Below are positions 12,173 through 18,657 of a stretch of 64,000 nucleotides of DNA, one piece after another. The stretch is taken from contig JAFXVX010000013.1 in assembly GCA_017534745.1 (NCBI GenBank), positions 210,342 through 274,341 of the forward strand, written 5' to 3'. The notes below the pieces were generated by a model. That model saw only the letters and a list, made by a program, of their open reading frames with translations, was not told the DNA's origin and made no database searches. How positions within the stretch are numbered: the stretch's first letter is position 1; every line of letters starts with the position of its first letter. A program made the translations under genes and the position numbers. The stretch comes from Bacteroidales bacterium. GTDB taxonomy: Bacteria > Bacteroidota > Bacteroidia > Bacteroidales > UBA932.

Positions 12173-12619
12173 TTATAATATTTGTACGAAAACCAGTCTT
12201 CCAAGTCTGTTATTTTCGAGTCTCTTTTGTATTAGAGTGTCTAACAAGGACGTCGCCTCGCAAATAGGCCCGTTATCGAGGTGACAAAAACTCCTATCAG
12301 AAGAATAGATAAGAAAAAACTCCTCTTCTGCCCAGAAGCTGGTACCGTCGACACACGATCTAATATGTTTCTGTCTGTAAGAATCAAACGTATCATCTTC
12401 CTCTCCTTTAGATTTGATGAAATCAAGAACCTTTGCGCGCAAATCTCCGATGTCTTTCTTAGAAATTGTTGGATTCAAGGAGACGGCGGATGTTTCATAA
12501 TAATCATCATAATTGAAAAGATCGGGCGGATAAATCTCTTCGACCTTTTCCCTCGCAACTTTCTCCTTATTGATGATTCTAGCGTTATGCAAAATGCCAA
12601 TATGGATAAATTGAGCCAT
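12173..12619 (-). CDS. Hypothetical protein of the accessory three-gene operon (A)
   Basis: 148 residues from the ATG at 12619. An in-frame ATG at 12640 lies inside the -7 box and cannot be used by that promoter. The sequence starts with a strand (MAQFIHIGILHNARIINKEK), continues with charged helices including GDLRAKVLDFIKSKGEEDDT, and has an aromatic/acidic patch (WAEEEFFLIYSSDRSF) before a C-terminal strand GRLVFVQIL. No signal peptide or membrane segment and no recognised family. It heads an operon with the 11650-12168 gene and the XRE regulator. Like the next protein it begins with a hydrophobic strand, so the two might be distant relatives or partners (inference). Confidence 0.6.
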   Translation of the reverse strand: MAQFIHIGILHNARIINKEKVAREKVEEIYPPDLFNYDDYYETSAVSLNPTISKKDIGDLRAKVLDFIKSKGEEDDTFDSYRQKHIRSCVDGTSFWAEEEFFLIYSSDRSFCHLDNGPICEATSLLDTLIQKRLENNRLGRLVFVQIL

Positions 12620-12637
12620 AATAAATCGTATTTGACA

Positions 12638-12668
12638 CAAAGGTAATAAAAAAATATTATTTCACAAA
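12638..12668 (-). promoter_or_regulatory. Promoter of the three-gene accessory operon
   Basis: Minus-strand TTTG (complement 12665-12668), 19 bases, TACCTTTG (complement 12638-12645). The -7 octamer is identical to that of higBA. The ATG at 12619 begins 19 bases past the box. Confidence 0.8.
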
Positions 12669-12678
12669 TTCTTTATGA

Positions 12679-12733
12679 GATTCCTACGCCTTCGGCTCGG
12701 AATGACAAAGAAGCCTTCGACTCGGAATGACAA
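12679..12733. repeat. Two tandem REP-like repeat copies
   Basis: A copy of a dispersed motif beginning GATTCCTACGCC and ending CTCGGAATGACAA occupies 12679-12708; a shorter copy (AGCCTTCGACTCGGAATGAC) follows at 12712-12733. Related copies are at 12914-12941, 21848-21914 and 38328-38355. The region from 12646 to 12967 holds no gene, only such repeats and hairpins. Confidence 0.65.
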
Positions 12734-12783
12734 GGAGAGCGCTACCGCTCGGTGGAAATGATAGGAAATCGCTGTCTGTCGCG

Positions 12784-12863
12784 AGTAATGGCATTAAAAA
12801 TTTGCCATTACTTTCAAAAAAGACCGAAAATGCGAGTAACGGTACCTAATTTCTCCCATTACT
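12784..12863. repeat. Double-hairpin element
   Basis: AGTAATGGC (12784-12792) pairs perfectly with GCCATTACT (12804-12812) around an 11-base A/T loop. A second, degenerate copy, AGTAACGG (12835-12842) with CCATTACT (12856-12863), follows in the same orientation. Both are preceded by GCG and have A/T-rich loops containing AATTT. Another gene-free hairpin, GACCCGG (12871-12877) with CCGGGTC (12892-12898), comes next. These look like small non-autonomous palindromic elements. Confidence 0.55.
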
Positions 12864-12913
12864 AACACTCGACCCGGAGCGTTGACTCGCCCCGGGTCAA
12901 ATGTTTCTGTTAA

Positions 12914-12941
12914 GATTCCTTCGCCCCCCAGCACGGAATGG
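12914..12941. repeat. Degenerate REP-like repeat copy
   Basis: Starts GATTCCTTCGCC and ends CACGGAATGG, matching the ends of the dispersed repeat but with an altered middle. It lies just past the 3' end of the BACON lipoprotein gene. Confidence 0.45.
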
Positions 12942-12967
12942 CGGGGCAAGCCCGGAATAAAAGTTAT

Positions 12968-15670
12968 CTACTTCACCACGCGGACGGGGATGCGGTCGGA
13001 GGCGGAGTATGGATCGCGGGTGGCGATGGTGCCGTACTGGTCGCTGTGGTAATAGAACCAGGCGCACCAGTAGTAGTTGGACCAGTTGGGATCCGGGTAA
13101 CTACTCCAGTAAAAAGCGCGGTCGGTGTAAGACAGAACCGAGGGGGAGACGATCGGGTAGTAGCCGGAGGCTGGTATGAAGTACATGTCGATCCAGGCGT
13201 TGGATTCGTCTTTGGGCGTGGCGACGAAACCTACGACGCCGCCGACGGTTGTCTTAGTCCAGGTGAAGGCGTGCTGGAAGTCGTTCCACTCTCCGAGAGT
13301 AGGGAGCCGAGTGCCGGAAGGAAGATTAGACTGTGCCTGCGAATAGTTGTAGTAGTTGCCGATCTTGTCGCCGCCCGTCGCGCCGACGTTGCAGGAGGCC
13401 CAGTTGATGTGATACTGCGTCCCTCTGCCAGGATCATCCTGCCTTGTCAGCACCAGGTCGAAGTAGTCCCGGATGCCCTGGGTCACGGTGACAGTCTTTG
13501 TCGCCAGGCCTATGTAACTGATGTTGATGGTCGCGGTGCGGGCAAGGTTGGTCTTGTTCTCCGTGACGTTAACCATTGTCCCATTGCGATCGGGGGTGAA
13601 CGACACCCAGTCAGCGTCGCACTCGTAGGTCATTTCCTCGAAGATGCGCTCATACCCGGCGTAACATTTCATCCAGATACTTTCGGACTCGTAGCCCGCG
13701 GACAGGGATTCCGGCTCGACGTATATAATTGGAGCCGTGTACGTCTGGATTATCCTCAGCGTAGATGATTCAGTGCCGATGGAAAGGGTAAGGGTCGCTT
13801 CGCGGGTCGCACCCGAGTTGTTGTAATCGACCTCACAGCGGTATGAACGGCTGCCGTTATTCCACTCCCTCCACTTCGGGACCAGCCAGTCGGCGCTGCT
13901 CTCGGCCTGCATCTGCCCCTCATCCAGCGAACTGTCGAGGAGTTCGAAATTCACATGGATGGTAGCTTTACTGTAGTCGAGGTTCAGTTCAGAGTCCATG
14001 GCTATCGCCGACTGGACACCGGTCTGGATGACGGTGAGAACCGCCGAGGAATTACCGTCAGTGATTGTGACATGGCCGGTGCGCGTCTCGGTCGTGTGAT
14101 TGGCATCAAGCTGGATCCATCCCCACCAGCAGTTTCTGTCATTGTCCCAGCCACCCTTGTTGGGATACCATATCCAATCCGCGTCGTCGGTGAATGTCTC
14201 ATTACCGGTACCGTTGAGGATATTGTAATAGAAGTGCAGCTGGCCCTTATTGTGAAAATCTGTCGTGATTTCATCAGCAACGAGGGTTACGACCGGCTCT
14301 ATCCCCCTCTGGGTCAGGGTGTAGGTCGCGACTACGTCCTCGAAGATTTCGTACCACGAATGGTAGCGCAGCGTAATAGTCGCGGTGCGTGCTTCATCAC
14401 TCTGGTTTTCATTGACGGACAGGTAAAGATACTCCGTATTGGCCGAGCAGTAGAGCCAGTCGGCCTCGGTCTCGGTGAGGACCTCCCAATTGTCGCGGGG
14501 GTTTTTCACCGTCAGGGGCACGGTGATTTCTTCCTGCGCCCGGAAGTCGATCTCGCCGGTGGCGGACTCGAAGGAGATCACCGGGGCGTCGTAGGTCTGG
14601 GTAATAGTCACGGGGACCTCCGGGGCCGGCGGGTATTCATCGCTGCCGCTCTCTGAGTAATACATAAGAAGCAACTTCGCGGTGCGGGAGGCGCCGCTGT
14701 TGTTTTCTGCGATGCAGATGCAGGCTTCATTGGCGCTGTTGATAAAACCGTATATCCAGTCCGGATCCCCCTCGACGCGGATACCCGGCTGGTAGGCCGA
14801 CGACGGGTTGATGATGCTGAACGGCAGGCTGATGGCCGTGGTAAGGGATTCGTAGCCGCGCTGCCTGTAGTCGAATGTTTTCTCCGTCCACTCCGGAACA
14901 ATAGCGCGGGTAATCTCCCGGCGGATGGTAACCGCAAGGTCGGGAGCGCCGGGATAGTGGAGGGTCACATCGCCGGAAACCGCTGACTGAACGGCAGATA
15001 CGGAAACCAGCACCTCCCCTTCTCCATAGGCCACATTGCCTATGAAGGAGGCGCTGCCCTTTGTAGCCGTGAGCTCGCCCCACGGGACTGCCGGGGATAT
15101 CGTATATGGAATATGGACTACCTGCTCCTCGGAGCCGACGGTGATAGTGTTATCCTCGAGGGTCGTCGTGATGGAGGAATAGGTCTCGCCGACAAAACGG
15201 GTGACTTTCTTATAGGCTCTTCCCCCCAGAGTCAGGGTCTTCCCGGAGAGGCTCCACGTCGCCTCGCAGACATTCCCCTTGACTTCAAACCCTGCCGGCG
15301 GCTCCTCCCAGCGCCCAATCTCAGGATACCCCCTGCCATCCACGGGCACACTGATTTTGCCGGAGGTAATCGTGCAGGCGACTCCCATAACGACAGGCTC
15401 CCCTTCAATATCTCCGTAAACCTCATCCTGGTAGAAATAGCACCCGGCTTCAGGAGCCAATATTGAGAAGCAACCCTCAAAACGCTCTTTTTCAATCTCG
15501 AGGATTTCCTGGACACGGTAGTCTTCGCCCGCAAGCGCCCAGGCCCCGGAGATGTCCTCGACAACCGGACCGGGCCCCGGCTCGTCGCCTTTCTGCTTTT
15601 CTTCTTTTTTACACGAGGCCACCGCCATGGCAGCCATCGCAATGAATATCAGGTATCTCCAGGTTTTCAT
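12968..15670 (-). CDS. BACON-repeat lipoprotein with FISUMP-like C-terminal domain
   Basis: 900 residues from the ATG at 15670; a longer frame starting inside the ornithine carbamoyltransferase gene was rejected because MKTWRYLIFIAMAAMAVASC is a clean lipoprotein signal. After an N-terminal lipocalin-like region (about 35-150, with ISGAWALAGEDYRV) come about six BACON-type beta domains of 90-110 residues, each with an ADW or DPDW word followed by ARTATI or SRTAKL and closing in ITQTY, LTQRG or VTQG. The last 155 residues form a FISUMP-like domain (SGTRLPTLGEWNDFQ, FIPASGYY, FYWSSYPDP, ending RIPVRVVK). BACON domains are associated with glycan or mucin contact at the Bacteroidetes surface. It starts 43 bases after the ornithine carbamoyltransferase stop, but a functional link to arginine metabolism is unlikely. 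Confidence 0.85.
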   Translation of the reverse strand: MKTWRYLIFIAMAAMAVASCKKEEKQKGDEPGPGPVVEDISGAWALAGEDYRVQEILEIEKERFEGCFSILAPEAGCYFYQDEVYGDIEGEPVVMGVACTITSGKISVPVDGRGYPEIGRWEEPPAGFEVKGNVCEATWSLSGKTLTLGGRAYKKVTRFVGETYSSITTTLEDNTITVGSEEQVVHIPYTISPAVPWGELTATKGSASFIGNVAYGEGEVLVSVSAVQSAVSGDVTLHYPGAPDLAVTIRREITRAIVPEWTEKTFDYRQRGYESLTTAISLPFSIINPSSAYQPGIRVEGDPDWIYGFINSANEACICIAENNSGASRTAKLLLMYYSESGSDEYPPAPEVPVTITQTYDAPVISFESATGEIDFRAQEEITVPLTVKNPRDNWEVLTETEADWLYCSANTEYLYLSVNENQSDEARTATITLRYHSWYEIFEDVVATYTLTQRGIEPVVTLVADEITTDFHNKGQLHFYYNILNGTGNETFTDDADWIWYPNKGGWDNDRNCWWGWIQLDANHTTETRTGHVTITDGNSSAVLTVIQTGVQSAIAMDSELNLDYSKATIHVNFELLDSSLDEGQMQAESSADWLVPKWREWNNGSRSYRCEVDYNNSGATREATLTLSIGTESSTLRIIQTYTAPIIYVEPESLSAGYESESIWMKCYAGYERIFEEMTYECDADWVSFTPDRNGTMVNVTENKTNLARTATINISYIGLATKTVTVTQGIRDYFDLVLTRQDDPGRGTQYHINWASCNVGATGGDKIGNYYNYSQAQSNLPSGTRLPTLGEWNDFQHAFTWTKTTVGGVVGFVATPKDESNAWIDMYFIPASGYYPIVSPSVLSYTDRAFYWSSYPDPNWSNYYWCAWFYYHSDQYGTIATRDPYSASDRIPVRVVK

Positions 15671-15713
15671 AATAGTGTCATTTTGCGTCCAACCGCGAAT
15701 ATAACACTTTTTC

Positions 15714-16715
15714 TTAATTACCCAGCGTCGCAACCATCACTGCTTTAATGGTATGCATGCGGTTCTCGGCTTCGTCGAAGACGATGCTGGCGGGGCTCTC
15801 GAAGACTTCTTCGGTCACCTCGACGCCGTCGAGGCCGAACTTTTCGAAGACTTCGCGGCCGACGCGGGTCTCGAGATTGTGGTAGGCCGGGAGGCAGTGC
15901 ATGAATTTGCATGCGGGATTACCCGTGCGGGCCATAAGGGAGGCGTTGACCTGGTAGGGCTTAAGGATGGCGATGCGCTCCTTCCAGACCTCGTCGGGCT
16001 CGCCCATCGAGACCCAGACGTCGGTGTAGAGGAAGTCGCAGCCGCGGACGCCGAGATCGACATCGTCGGTGACGGTGATGCGCGCGCCGGTCTCGGCCGC
16101 GATGCGCCGGCACTCCTCGACGAGCTCAGCCGCCGGCTGCAGCGCCTTGGGCGCCACTATACGCACGTCCATGCCCATTTTCGCGCCACCGACAAGGAGG
16201 GAGTTGCCCATATTGTAGCGGGCGTCGCCGAGGTAGGCGTAGGACACCTCGCGGAGCGGCTTGCCGGCGTGCTCGCGCATCGTGAGGAAGTCGGCGAGGA
16301 TCTGAGTCGGGTGGAACTCGTTGGTGAGGCCGTTCCAGACGGGAACGCCGGCGTACTTCGCCAGCTCCTCGACGGTCGCCTGCGCGAAACCGCGGTACTC
16401 GATGCCGTCGTACATCCTCCCAATCACCCTTGCCGTGTCCTTCATCGACTCCTTGACGCCAATCTGCGAACCCGTCGGGCCTAGATACGTCACGTGCGCT
16501 CCCTGGTCGTAGGACGCCACCTCGAAGGAGCAGCGCGTCCTCGTCGAGGTCTTCTCGAAAATGAGGGCTATGTTCTTACCGGTCAGGTGCTTGACCTCGC
16601 GTCCCTCTTTCTTGTCCTTCTTCAGCGATGCCGCCAGATTGAGCAGATACTCTATCTCCTCCGGCTTAAAATCCAGCAGTTTCAAAAAACTGCGCTTTTT
16701 CAGATTGATTTCCAT
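15714..16715 (-). CDS. arcB: Ornithine carbamoyltransferase
   Basis: 333 residues, normal for the family. The carbamoyl-phosphate site [11 protein letters not shown] is at about residues 55-65, the second motif is [15 protein letters not shown], and the ornithine-binding/catalytic motif is MHCLPAYH near residue 270, where anabolic and catabolic enzymes both carry HCLP. The reaction interconverts ornithine plus carbamoyl phosphate and citrulline. Next to carbamate kinase and an arginine deiminase-like enzyme, the catabolic direction (citrulline to carbamoyl phosphate and ornithine) is the likely one, so arcB rather than argF; sequence alone does not separate them. Seven bases separate it from arcC upstream. 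Confidence 0.93.
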
Positions 16716-16721
16716 ATTATT

Positions 16722-17741
16722 TTAAGGTAAAATTCTTGTTCCACAGGATGGGTTGCCGAGCTGGCCGGCTTCGGTGATGACGCACTCGCCGCCGCAGGTC
16801 TCGACGAAGCGGATGCCGGCACGGACCTTCGGGGCCATCGAGCCTTCGGCGAACTGGCCCTCTGCGAGGTACCGCCGGGCCTCCTCCACGCTTATGCTGT
16901 CGAGCGCCTTCTCCCCCGGCTTCCTGAAGTTGATATACACCTTCGGCACATCGGTGAGGATATAAAACTCATCAGCCTTCATCGACGTCGCCGCAAGGGC
17001 ACTCGCGAGATCCTTGTCAATCACGGCCTCGACGCCGCGACACCCATCCCCCTCACGCACGACGGGAATCCCGCCCCCGCCTGCCGTGATTACGATATAC
17101 CCTTCACGCGCCAGCCTCTCCACCAAGTCGATGTTCTCAATCCTCACCGGCACCGGCGACGCCACGACCTTCCGCCAGCCGCGGCCGGCGGGGTCCTCCT
17201 TATACACGGCGCCCCCCGCCTCAGGTGTGCTTAGGTGGTCATTTTTTTGCCACCCAGTAACGTTTTCCCCGGTAAATTGTGCGTGGGTGGTAAAATTTTC
17301 GCCACCTATGCACACTCCGGGGTTCGAGGGATAATACGGGCCGACGGGCTTGGTGGGGTTGGTGAAGCCGGGATCGTCCGGGGAGACCTCGACGCGGGTG
17401 ACGAGGGAGACGACGGGGCGATCGATGCCCTCGCGGCGGAGGACTCGCTCGAGCGCGGTCTCGATGAGATACGCGATCGAGCCCTGCGTCTCGGCCCCGC
17501 AGAAGTCCATCGGCATGGCCTCGAGGCCATAGACCTGCTTGCCGGCCTCCTGCCGGAGCAGGCCGTTGCCGACCTGCGGGCCGTTGCCGTGGGCGATGAC
17601 GAGGCCGTAGCCGCGCCGCAGCAGGTGCACCAGCTGCGCGCACGTCGCCTCGACATTACGCAGCTGCTCCTCGAACGTCCCCTTCTCCCCCGCCCTCAGG
17701 AGCGCGTTGCCCCCGAAAGCGACCATTGCGAGCCTGTCCAT
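16722..17741 (-). CDS. arcC: Carbamate kinase with an in-frame inserted segment
   Basis: 339 residues, about 25-30 longer than the usual 310-315. Typical motifs are AFGGNAL near the start, VIAHGNGPQVGNGLL, VSLVTRVEVSPDDPGF, TKPVGPYY, KEDPAGRGWRKVVASP, VITAGGGGIPVV, IDKDLASALAA and GSMAPKVRA. The enzyme transfers phosphate from carbamoyl phosphate to ADP, giving ATP, ammonia and CO2. The extra residues lie between GPYY and KEDPAGRGWR, a surface-loop area in family structures, and are encoded by a palindromic element at about 17226-17314. All catalytic motifs flank it intact, so activity may be kept. It is third in the operon after the EamA and deiminase-like genes. Confidence 0.93.
   Translation of the reverse strand: MDRLAMVAFGGNALLRAGEKGTFEEQLRNVEATCAQLVHLLRRGYGLVIAHGNGPQVGNGLLRQEAGKQVYGLEAMPMDFCGAETQGSIAYLIETALERVLRREGIDRPVVSLVTRVEVSPDDPGFTNPTKPVGPYYPSNPGVCIGGENFTTHAQFTGENVTGWQKNDHLSTPEAGGAVYKEDPAGRGWRKVVASPVPVRIENIDLVERLAREGYIVITAGGGGIPVVREGDGCRGVEAVIDKDLASALAATSMKADEFYILTDVPKVYINFRKPGEKALDSISVEEARRYLAEGQFAEGSMAPKVRAGIRFVETCGGECVITEAGQLGNPSCGTRILP
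17226..17314. repeat. Palindromic element inserted in frame within arcC
   Basis: A 31-base left arm (17226-17256) and a 31-base right arm (17284-17314) are inverted copies of each other with 24 matches of 31, around a 27-base centre. Each arm is itself a small hairpin (GGTGG and CCACC around an A/T-rich loop). The stretch is more A/T-rich than the surrounding gene and keeps the reading frame, encoding a Gly/Asn/Thr-rich peptide. Its build resembles the double hairpin at 12784-12863, though the stems differ. Confidence 0.7.
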
Positions 17742-17742
17742 A

Positions 17743-18657
17743 TCAATCCCTCCTCAGCGGCAGGGTCGAGCAGCGGAGCAGCCCTCCCATCTTCGAGATT
17801 TCACGATACGGCACCGTCTCGACCGTCATGCCCCACACCTCACGGAGGTGGTGGTTCAGACGGGAGAAATGCTCCTCCGAGACGACAACGTCCTCGGAGA
17901 TCGAGAATATGTTGGAGTTCATCCAATACATCTCCTCGGCTGTCAGCTCGAACACATTTTCCGGTCCGAACATATCCACCAGGTGAGCCGCATCGCGCGG
18001 ATTGAGGAATCCGCCGCGGTAGATTATCGCCTTGTCGCGCCCCACCGGCATGAACGTGCAGTCGAGGTGAAGGATGCCGTCGTAGGGGTCCGTGTCGCTC
18101 TTCCGCAGGTTAAGAGGGATGATCTCCTTTTCGGGTAACAGCATCTTGAGGTAGTCCAGCGCCAGCCGGTTGGTCCGCGCCGTCTTCACCTCCGAGTAAT
18201 CCGGGAACGCATACTGCCCGAGGAAGATCTTACCTCCGTAGAGGATGACGTCGCCGCCCTCCACGTGGACCGCCTCCGGAAGGTTATATATCTGCTTATA
18301 CCGTATCTGCCGGTAAATATTTTCATACGCGTCGATCTCATCCTGCCTGTCGGGGATAATGTTGCTGACGATGATCTTGTCGTCGATCACGAACCCCACG
18401 TCGCGGGAGAATATCTGGTTGCAGCCGGCCACGTGGTCGGGCCTGTACACCTTGACGTCGTATTTTTTGAGCACGGCCTCGAAGGCATTCATCTCGCGCA
18501 CGATGTCCTCCTCCTTCGGATAGACCCCGTGAAGCACTGATTCATAGGACTTTGCATCGAAAGTCTCCTCCAGCTTCGGCGTGGGCCCCGGAGAATAGGG
18601 CCAGCCGAGAACGACCTCCCTGAGGCGCGAAGTTTCTGAGTGTATATTGAGTTCCAT
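17743..18657 (-). CDS. Arginine deiminase-like amidinotransferase-superfamily enzyme
   Basis: 304 residues, shorter than classical ArcA (about 400) and close to DDAH-like deiminases. Superfamily signs: RDVGFVIDD in the first half, EGGDVILYGGKIFLG (Glu-Gly-Gly-Asp substrate/structural motif), LHLDCTFMPVG with the catalytic histidine-aspartate region, and the near-terminal GGLLRCSTLPLRR with the catalytic cysteine at about residue 297. Family enzymes hydrolyse guanidino groups, for example arginine to citrulline and ammonia. Because the downstream genes encode carbamate kinase and ornithine carbamoyltransferase, arginine deiminase activity is the best guess. Agmatine or a modified arginine as substrate is possible. 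It ends 2 bases from the arcC start. Confidence 0.8.
   Translation of the reverse strand: MELNIHSETSRLREVVLGWPYSPGPTPKLEETFDAKSYESVLHGVYPKEEDIVREMNAFEAVLKKYDVKVYRPDHVAGCNQIFSRDVGFVIDDKIIVSNIIPDRQDEIDAYENIYRQIRYKQIYNLPEAVHVEGGDVILYGGKIFLGQYAFPDYSEVKTARTNRLALDYLKMLLPEKEIIPLNLRKSDTDPYDGILHLDCTFMPVGRDKAIIYRGGFLNPRDAAHLVDMFGPENVFELTAEEMYWMNSNIFSISEDVVVSEEHFSRLNHHLREVWGMTVETVPYREISKMGGLLRCSTLPLRRD

Follow-up and report, generated by a model that had tools for sequence, protein, structure and literature searches.

The palindrome lying in frame within the carbamate kinase gene arcC of this Bacteroidales genome is probably a REPIN-like copy that landed in the gene, presumably moved by a Y1/HUH protein of the RAYT kind; it is predicted to be tolerated and translated. 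Its family is dispersed, has a covarying structure and is found beside one RAYT-like clade; copies differ in presence between sister species, and the position in frame is shared. The original prediction, that a small mobile palindrome had landed in a core enzyme, is supported by the dispersed copies and by relatives without the insert; mobility itself is presumed. Coordinates refer to the window, i.e. the whole 64-kb stretch of DNA that was analysed.

Palindrome within the carbamate kinase gene

The host gene arcC (16722-17741, reverse strand) is an open reading frame of 339 amino acids with matches to Pfam AA_kinase (2.6e-25) and to the carbamate kinase 1e19 in the PDB (2e-77). On the same strand it is preceded by an arginine-deiminase-family gene (17743-18657; Pfam ADI, 9.5e-9) and followed by an ornithine/aspartate carbamoyltransferase gene (15714-16715; Pfam OTCace, 1e-51). 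The palindrome was found exactly where it had been reported: 24 of 31 positions pair between the arms 17226-17256 and 17284-17314, which enclose a 27-nt centre, and this was the top score for that geometry in the window (runners-up 21, 20 and 19). As had also been claimed, the stretch is richer in A/T than the surrounding gene (G+C 0.46 versus 0.66 in the remaining arcC) and the frame stays open. Compared with shuffled sequences, z-scores of -3.8 were obtained for the fold as single-stranded DNA (equally good in 1 of 200 shuffles) and of -4.3 for the fold as RNA (0 of 200).

The full element extends slightly beyond the span first noted (17226-17314), to approximately 17222-17318 on the reverse strand, and scored 81.4 bits (E 1.4e-22) with the covariance model R1, to which this copy itself belongs, and 74.4 bits with the model R2. 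On this strand it comprises hairpin 1 (17286-17306) and hairpin 2 (17234-17254), both GGTGG-loop-CCACC and both identical in the sister species RUG13713 (G240), a 31-nt centre between them (17255-17285) and the outer arms GTGTGC (17310-17315) and GCACAC (17225-17230), which are partners according to sequence and fold. A repeat listing of the window with default settings did not contain the arcC palindrome, and an Rfam scan of 12500-18000 yielded no matching family for the element. A BTnc060 match in that scan (E 0.64), located away from the element, was rejected.

Between the motifs KPVGPYY and DPAGRGWR, the ArcC loop reads PSNP-GVCIGGENFTTHAQFTGENVTGWQKNDHLSTPEAGGAVYKE and comprises 45 residues, compared with 18 in the commonest form and 11-16 in many near relatives. 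The protein, predicted to be about 25-30 residues longer than usual, exceeds the 18-residue loop by 27 residues and a loop of 12 by 33. The alignment with 1e19, the closest solved relative, breaks between chain residues 140 and 150, and the structural report on the Mycoplasma penetrans enzyme (PMC3474736) assigns Lys126-Val159, a stretch containing poorly resolved density, to the mobile protruding subdomain. From this break and these limits the insert is positioned, by homology, in the mobile protruding subdomain.

Among 101 genomes of the genus, 31 had an arcC match, and 29 of these hold the arcC loci read; the matches in G013 and G036 were weak and partial and were left out as arcC. Named genomes contributed 80 loci, some on the same contigs as the genus set; by title, nearly all are from Bacteroidales, Bacteroidia or Bacteroidetes MAGs and many from ruminant gut samples. 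The loop was readable in 104 of the 109 loci in these two overlapping sets, the other five not being parsed by the pattern. It had 11-18 residues in 90 loci, with 18 in most and 11-16 in many of the nearest group, and was longer in 14 (21-51 residues, 11 distinct loop strings). Among the 104 readable loci the element was present only in this genome and in RUG13713, the extra stretch being absent from all others, as anticipated for an insertion, and a covariance-model search of 86 sources found it in no further arcC.

The longer loops of L004, L005, L006, L007 and L011 were searched for the element, and none was found. Unrelated longer loops were VIPSEAKES (L004, L006), GNDG types (L007, L011, L190, L194), KWKVESG-like sequences (L224, L236) and another sequence in L005. 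In L004, VIPSEAKES is encoded by a TGTCATTCCGAGCGAAGCGAAGGAATC stretch, close to the TTCGCTCGGAATGACA repeat described below, and in our reading the remaining longer arcC loops are also of repeat origin. The arcC of G089 (L031) contains an extra stretch, NTATEDRAPSAGQGDDASEFRQ, at a second place near the ArcC C-terminus. In G040 (L010) a CHSRLDPES-coding sequence lies directly upstream of the likely arcC start and RQAQDP within the gene; we read both as repeat-like.

Divergence between the sister species

Outside the insert, arcC of this genome and of RUG13713 show approximately 89 synonymous and 30 non-synonymous differences over 300 codons (dS 0.56, dN 0.046). The 31 codons of the insert differ from this pattern, with no synonymous and nine non-synonymous changes (Fisher 1.1e-5 versus the rest of arcC; probability of no synonymous change 4e-5). 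Over 97 nt there were 11 differences, none in the 42 hairpin nucleotides and all in the other 55; seven of them fell in the 31-nt centre (Fisher 0.002). Set against the numbers of sites (73 non-synonymous, 20 synonymous), the nine-to-nil distribution had a P of 0.11 and is, at these small numbers, compatible with an absence of protein-level selection. The total divergence of the insert was far below the synonymous rate around it. Taken together, the nine-to-nil pattern and the low total divergence indicate, small as the numbers are, either that the hairpins are constrained as nucleic acid, with the insert conserved as DNA rather than as protein, or that the insert was recently replaced or homogenised.

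At two places tested, comprising three copies, the sister species was without a copy beside the same conserved gene. Neither a clean empty site nor a target duplication was seen; these two comparisons align on one flank only, and divergence of the loci is too great for an exact junction to show.

A dispersed family of double hairpins

A BLAST search of the genome with the insert returned the insert itself and one 26-nt match on contig C9 (L002), which looks like chance; six other sites were missed, presumably because their stems differ. By BLAST alone the element would have seemed to be without other copies, an outcome that the original prediction had named as an argument against insertion. 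The structure model R1 recovered seven sites (14 strand matches), and the further copies looked for in the genome were thereby found. Those outside arcC have different stems (TAATGG, CCTAATGG). One of them, of the TAATGG-stem subfamily, lies in the window at 12776-12871 (no strand assigned); it was also detected by the geometry scan, is not covered by any ORF of at least 60 amino acids and scored 23.1 bits with R1 and 57.6 bits with R2, a model of which it is itself part. On contig C8 (L099, 1533-1743) a single pair of ORFs encloses two elements with different stems, whose starts are separated by 115 nt.

A DNA search of 400 genomes of the genus gave matches in six, including the arcC orthologue of G240 (91%) and dispersed copies in G240, G005 and G038. 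The matches in G047 and G313 were chance-like, and L037 and L038, by eye ordinary gene sequence, were not counted as copies. A single-hairpin pattern with at most two mismatches matched in 10 of 101 genomes, compared with one match overall for a control pattern; in six of the ten, paired hairpins occur at a spacing of 51 nt (52 in this arcC), and G017, G042, G073 and G090, with a single hairpin-like match only, were not counted. R1 was built from 15 aligned copies (A1) and run on eight chosen genomes, with no site in G061; weak or partial R1 matches were left unused (G005 C42, C59, C80 and C182; G037 C39, C2 and C5; G089 C49 and C4:104389). The alignment A5 contains 40 copies, the G037 element being omitted as identical to one of G005. 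This identical copy in two genomes of the genus (L115 in G005, L120 in G037) possibly reflects a shared contig or a recent transfer.

With R2, matches at E ≤ 1e-4 were obtained in 157 of 400 genomes of the genus and, at family level, in 62 of 299 genomes belonging to 6 of 25 genera; most sampled genomes are thus without a match at this threshold. Since about ten candidates were scored per genome in the genus scan, per-genome copy counts are floors. In 530,652 bases (the window plus the arcC loci) R2 gave three sites up to E = 1, all of them previously known copies. The gene context of 41 sites, with genes called by ORF only, placed three in nameable genes (arcC twice, hydF) and two in long doubtful ORFs (L110, L112). 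The remaining 36 had no covering ORF of at least 200 amino acids, some overlapping an ORF end. The family is therefore dispersed in the genome and mostly extragenic; one site of this genome and copies in relatives adjoin transposase-like genes.

The element is a double hairpin of about 96 bp, in which two palindromic hairpins are contained in one larger palindrome. Among the first 15 copies, the hairpin starts were 51 nt apart in 12 and 52 nt apart in three, in a test that allowed 48-55 nt; the spacing of 52 nt is that of the three translated copies. Across the 40 copies of A5, of which 25 were collected with the structure model and lean towards the structure, 27 of 32 pairs had changed on both sides, and the covariation score was 0.398 versus 0.186 when shuffled and at most 0.139 when slid. 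The first 15 copies, collected by sequence pattern, covary too (0.221 versus 0.144). Stems thus differ between subfamilies while pairing is kept. Readings as a full palindrome and as two hairpins scored almost alike (0.398 and 0.393), and a cloverleaf (0.373) was no better than the full palindrome and was discarded; near-equal scores would follow from a common origin of all four arms in one stem.

In L280, L288 and L289, entirely different stems are combined with (A)GTGC...GCAC(T) ends and a GCAAAA-GGCC-TTTTTGC centre. Of the 40 copies in A5, 28 have TGC and 22 have GCA at the respective end, so that the ends are mostly TGC...GCA; a canonical GT[AG]G foot is absent. The arcC copies have the opposite centre polarity (TTTT...AAAA).

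Association with RAYT-like genes

Y1_Tnp (PF01797) was searched in six genomes, chosen because they hold copies, and 22 genes were found. Six of them (G000_C19b, G240_C125, G038_C5, G089_C4, G000_C1 and G037_C57) form one clade in a midpoint-rooted tree with long inner branches, at moderate support (83/98). Copies adjoin the first four of these, whereas none of the other 16 Y1 genes is flanked by copies at E ≤ 1e-4, one having a weak match (L152, E 0.022). This difference corresponds to a Fisher value of 0.002, or 0.010 with orthologous pairs counted once. The flanking copies contributed to R2, but had already been located with DNA, pattern or R1 searches when the search for Y1 genes began. 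In both G038 and G089 the Y1 gene is bracketed by elements. A GGTGG-type copy lies beside a clade gene in G038 only; none of the five Y1 genes in this genome and the six in G240 is flanked by the GGTGG-stem subfamily, so that no source gene for the arcC copy was found.

The placement of element copies beside a RAYT-like Y1 gene is the arrangement called REPtron. For all four proteins tested, the best NCBIfam match was the REP-associated tyrosine transposase, with REP_Tyr_transpos scores of 24.8-41.2 bits that are all below the cut-off of 80; with Pfam Y1_Tnp, two of the four were just over the cut-off and two just under. G000_C1 and G037_C57 have other palindromes nearby, with geometry scores of 28 and 30, and no score of at least 28 occurred in 129,030 shuffled bases. 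Another Y1 gene, on contig C1 of this genome, has GGAGGGTCACC palindromes on both sides (L137, 1091-1188, and following the gene); their core, TGCAAAAA...CCTTTTT, is similar, and they may represent a further subfamily. By analogy with REPIN/RAYT systems as described in the literature (PMC3116915; PMC6006769), the elements would be moved by the RAYT-like protein.

Translated repeats in HydF and other enzymes

RUG13713 holds a second translated copy, in frame in HydF (L073). The reading frame of the element agrees between ArcC and HydF (GGENFTT... and GGEKNTT...; shared pattern GGE..TT...F.G.NV.GWQ..DH), which, with two independent cases only, may be due to chance; the number of open frames per copy ranges from 0 to 5 of six. 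For the hydF copy the orientation is unsure: the DNA search favours that of arcC (E 1.3e-10 versus 2.3e-7), R1 the opposite one (66.7 versus 51.6 bits). HydF was compared among 61 genomes, with a match in 17. In the HydF of this genome (L155) the same loop holds a GTCATTCC-type array, LGMTEGALGMTEGALGMTEGAKES, instead; this genome and G240 thus carry two unrelated repeats in the same HydF loop. G040 has a similar array, G051 another repeat-like peptide, and L156 and L157 shorter, different loops.

A GTCATTCC-type short repeat is also present in the window at 12688-12736. Searched as TTCGCTCGGAATGACA with at most two mismatches, this repeat type, which is unrelated to the arcC element family, has 110 sites in this genome, versus 0 for a control pattern. 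ORFs were read around 30 exact repeat sites, and nine of them plus HydF were put to Pfam, which assigned a family to seven of the ten repeat-bearing ORFs. Six of these ORFs encode unambiguous enzymes that contain the repeat in frame: PriA (L315), UDP-glucose dehydrogenase (L299), an NAD-dependent epimerase (L300), an M20 peptidase (L316), a GH2 glycosidase (L295) and HydF (L155). L306 had a distant lectin-like match only, and L297, L308 and L310 had no Pfam family; in DNA this rich in G+C, chance alone produces long ORFs. The comparison with orthologues without the repeat covered HydF only. The arcC insert is one of several translated repeats in this genome, and comes from a different element family.

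Discussion

In the most probable course of events, the elements would be moved as single-stranded hairpin DNA by a RAYT-type transposase-like protein (Y1/HUH), and one of them would have landed in the mobile protruding subdomain of ArcC in a common ancestor of this species and RUG13713. The gene would have gained about 33 codons while the frame was kept. Given such an in-frame gain with the conserved motifs on both sides in place, the insert is predicted to be tolerated and, from its open frame, to be translated.

A plain MITE-like palindrome, served by an unrelated DDE or tyrosine enzyme, would have the same terminal inverted arms and small size, and its proximity to RAYT-like genes would be coincidental, owing to a preference for intergenic sites; indeed, the arcC copy and the majority of R1-listed copies have none of the 22 Y1 genes beside them. 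We nevertheless hold this explanation to be improbable, as copies flank four of the six genes of one Y1 clade and none of the 16 others, on both sides in two genomes, and a simple MITE needs no two nested hairpins at fixed spacing. Domestication of the stretch, e.g. as a regulated lid or binding loop that now serves the enzyme, appears quite unlikely. It would account for the retention of the insert in two species with an open frame, for the similar peptides that ArcC and HydF read from the element and for the predicted place, by homology, within the mobile protruding subdomain, but the nine-to-nil changes of the insert against approximately 89 to 30 elsewhere give no sign of protein constraint, and in the nearest other relatives the loop is either short or unrelated in sequence. 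We infer that the insert lacks a role at the protein level.

That no insertion occurred at all, the stretch being an ordinary fast-evolving carbamate kinase loop and palindromic by accident, is scarcely credible. The loop does vary widely in length and sequence in this group. However, the occurrence of the same palindrome family outside arcC, between genes and in HydF, already contradicts an accident, the hairpins are unchanged while the synonymous sites of arcC differ strongly, and the structure model had no chance matches in the bases searched for specificity. A REPIN-like insertion remains the reading that we favour.

The arrangement described here works like a REPIN/RAYT system, albeit a non-canonical one without the GT[AG]G foot. 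As in REPIN/RAYT systems, two palindromic repeats form a larger hairpin with fixed spacing and compensatory changes, and the copies are mostly intergenic, some of them beside a Y1/HUH transposase-like gene. Differences are the ends, mostly TGC...GCA, the recurring GCAAAA-GGCC-TTTTTGC-like centre, stems that are wholly different between subfamilies, AT-rich hairpin loops, the low copy number here and the host genes, which in this family are enzymes. The nearest described groups are subclasses 2.6 and 2.4, as treated by Quentin et al. (2018; PMC6006769). Subclass 2.6, mostly from Bacteroidetes, has according to these authors atypical flanking structures that lack GT[AG]G and of which further copies exist in the genome; in subclass 2.4 (Cyanobacteria and Bacteroidetes) REPs occur inside tnpAREP genes with the frame unbroken. 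The missing foot is common to subclass 2.6 and the present family. Compared by motif, our clade (NHVH, YVQMNP in several members) does not exactly match the table row of that subclass. The atypical structures in Table S1 of that paper may include the family described here.

The insert had originally been likened to Rickettsia palindromic elements, which are in-frame, translated palindromes in metabolic genes according to the review PMC10969869 and to PMC3733652. This comparison holds for the mode of insertion, in frame in protein genes (arcC; hydF of G240), but not for anatomy and gene partner, in which REPIN/RAYT systems are closer: phylum and architecture differ, only 3 of 41 copies lie in nameable genes here, and a RAYT-like partner is present. 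REP dimers in frame in known genes, tagged by GTAG or CGTC, are described in section 15 of PMC3733652 (Di Nocera and co-workers, 2013), a paper that also reports CGTC repeats from five phyla, Bacteroidetes among them; however, the section names other species as carriers of in-ORF copies and mentions neither ArcC nor HydF. A description of the present element family was not found in the open-access literature searched.

A broader picture can be offered tentatively, as one that may well hold but on which we would not quite rely. Palindromes of constant frame and variable stem would occur throughout the Bacteroidales and co-diverge with one RAYT-like clade; unrelated repeat families would repeatedly enter, in frame, the same permissive loops of core enzymes (ArcC and HydF; for the GTCATTCC-type repeat PriA, UDP-glucose dehydrogenase and others); and the translated parts would be kept by conservation at the level of DNA, not of protein.

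In the case of arcC, selfish DNA has apparently been incorporated into a protein. These findings extend translated palindromic elements, known chiefly from Rickettsia, to ordinary metabolic enzymes of Bacteroidales and supply a plausible mobilising gene. As sister species carry different repeats in the same enzyme loop, the genus offers natural before-and-after sets for studying the conversion of selfish DNA into protein sequence, the loops that admit it and the level, DNA hairpin or peptide, at which selection operates.
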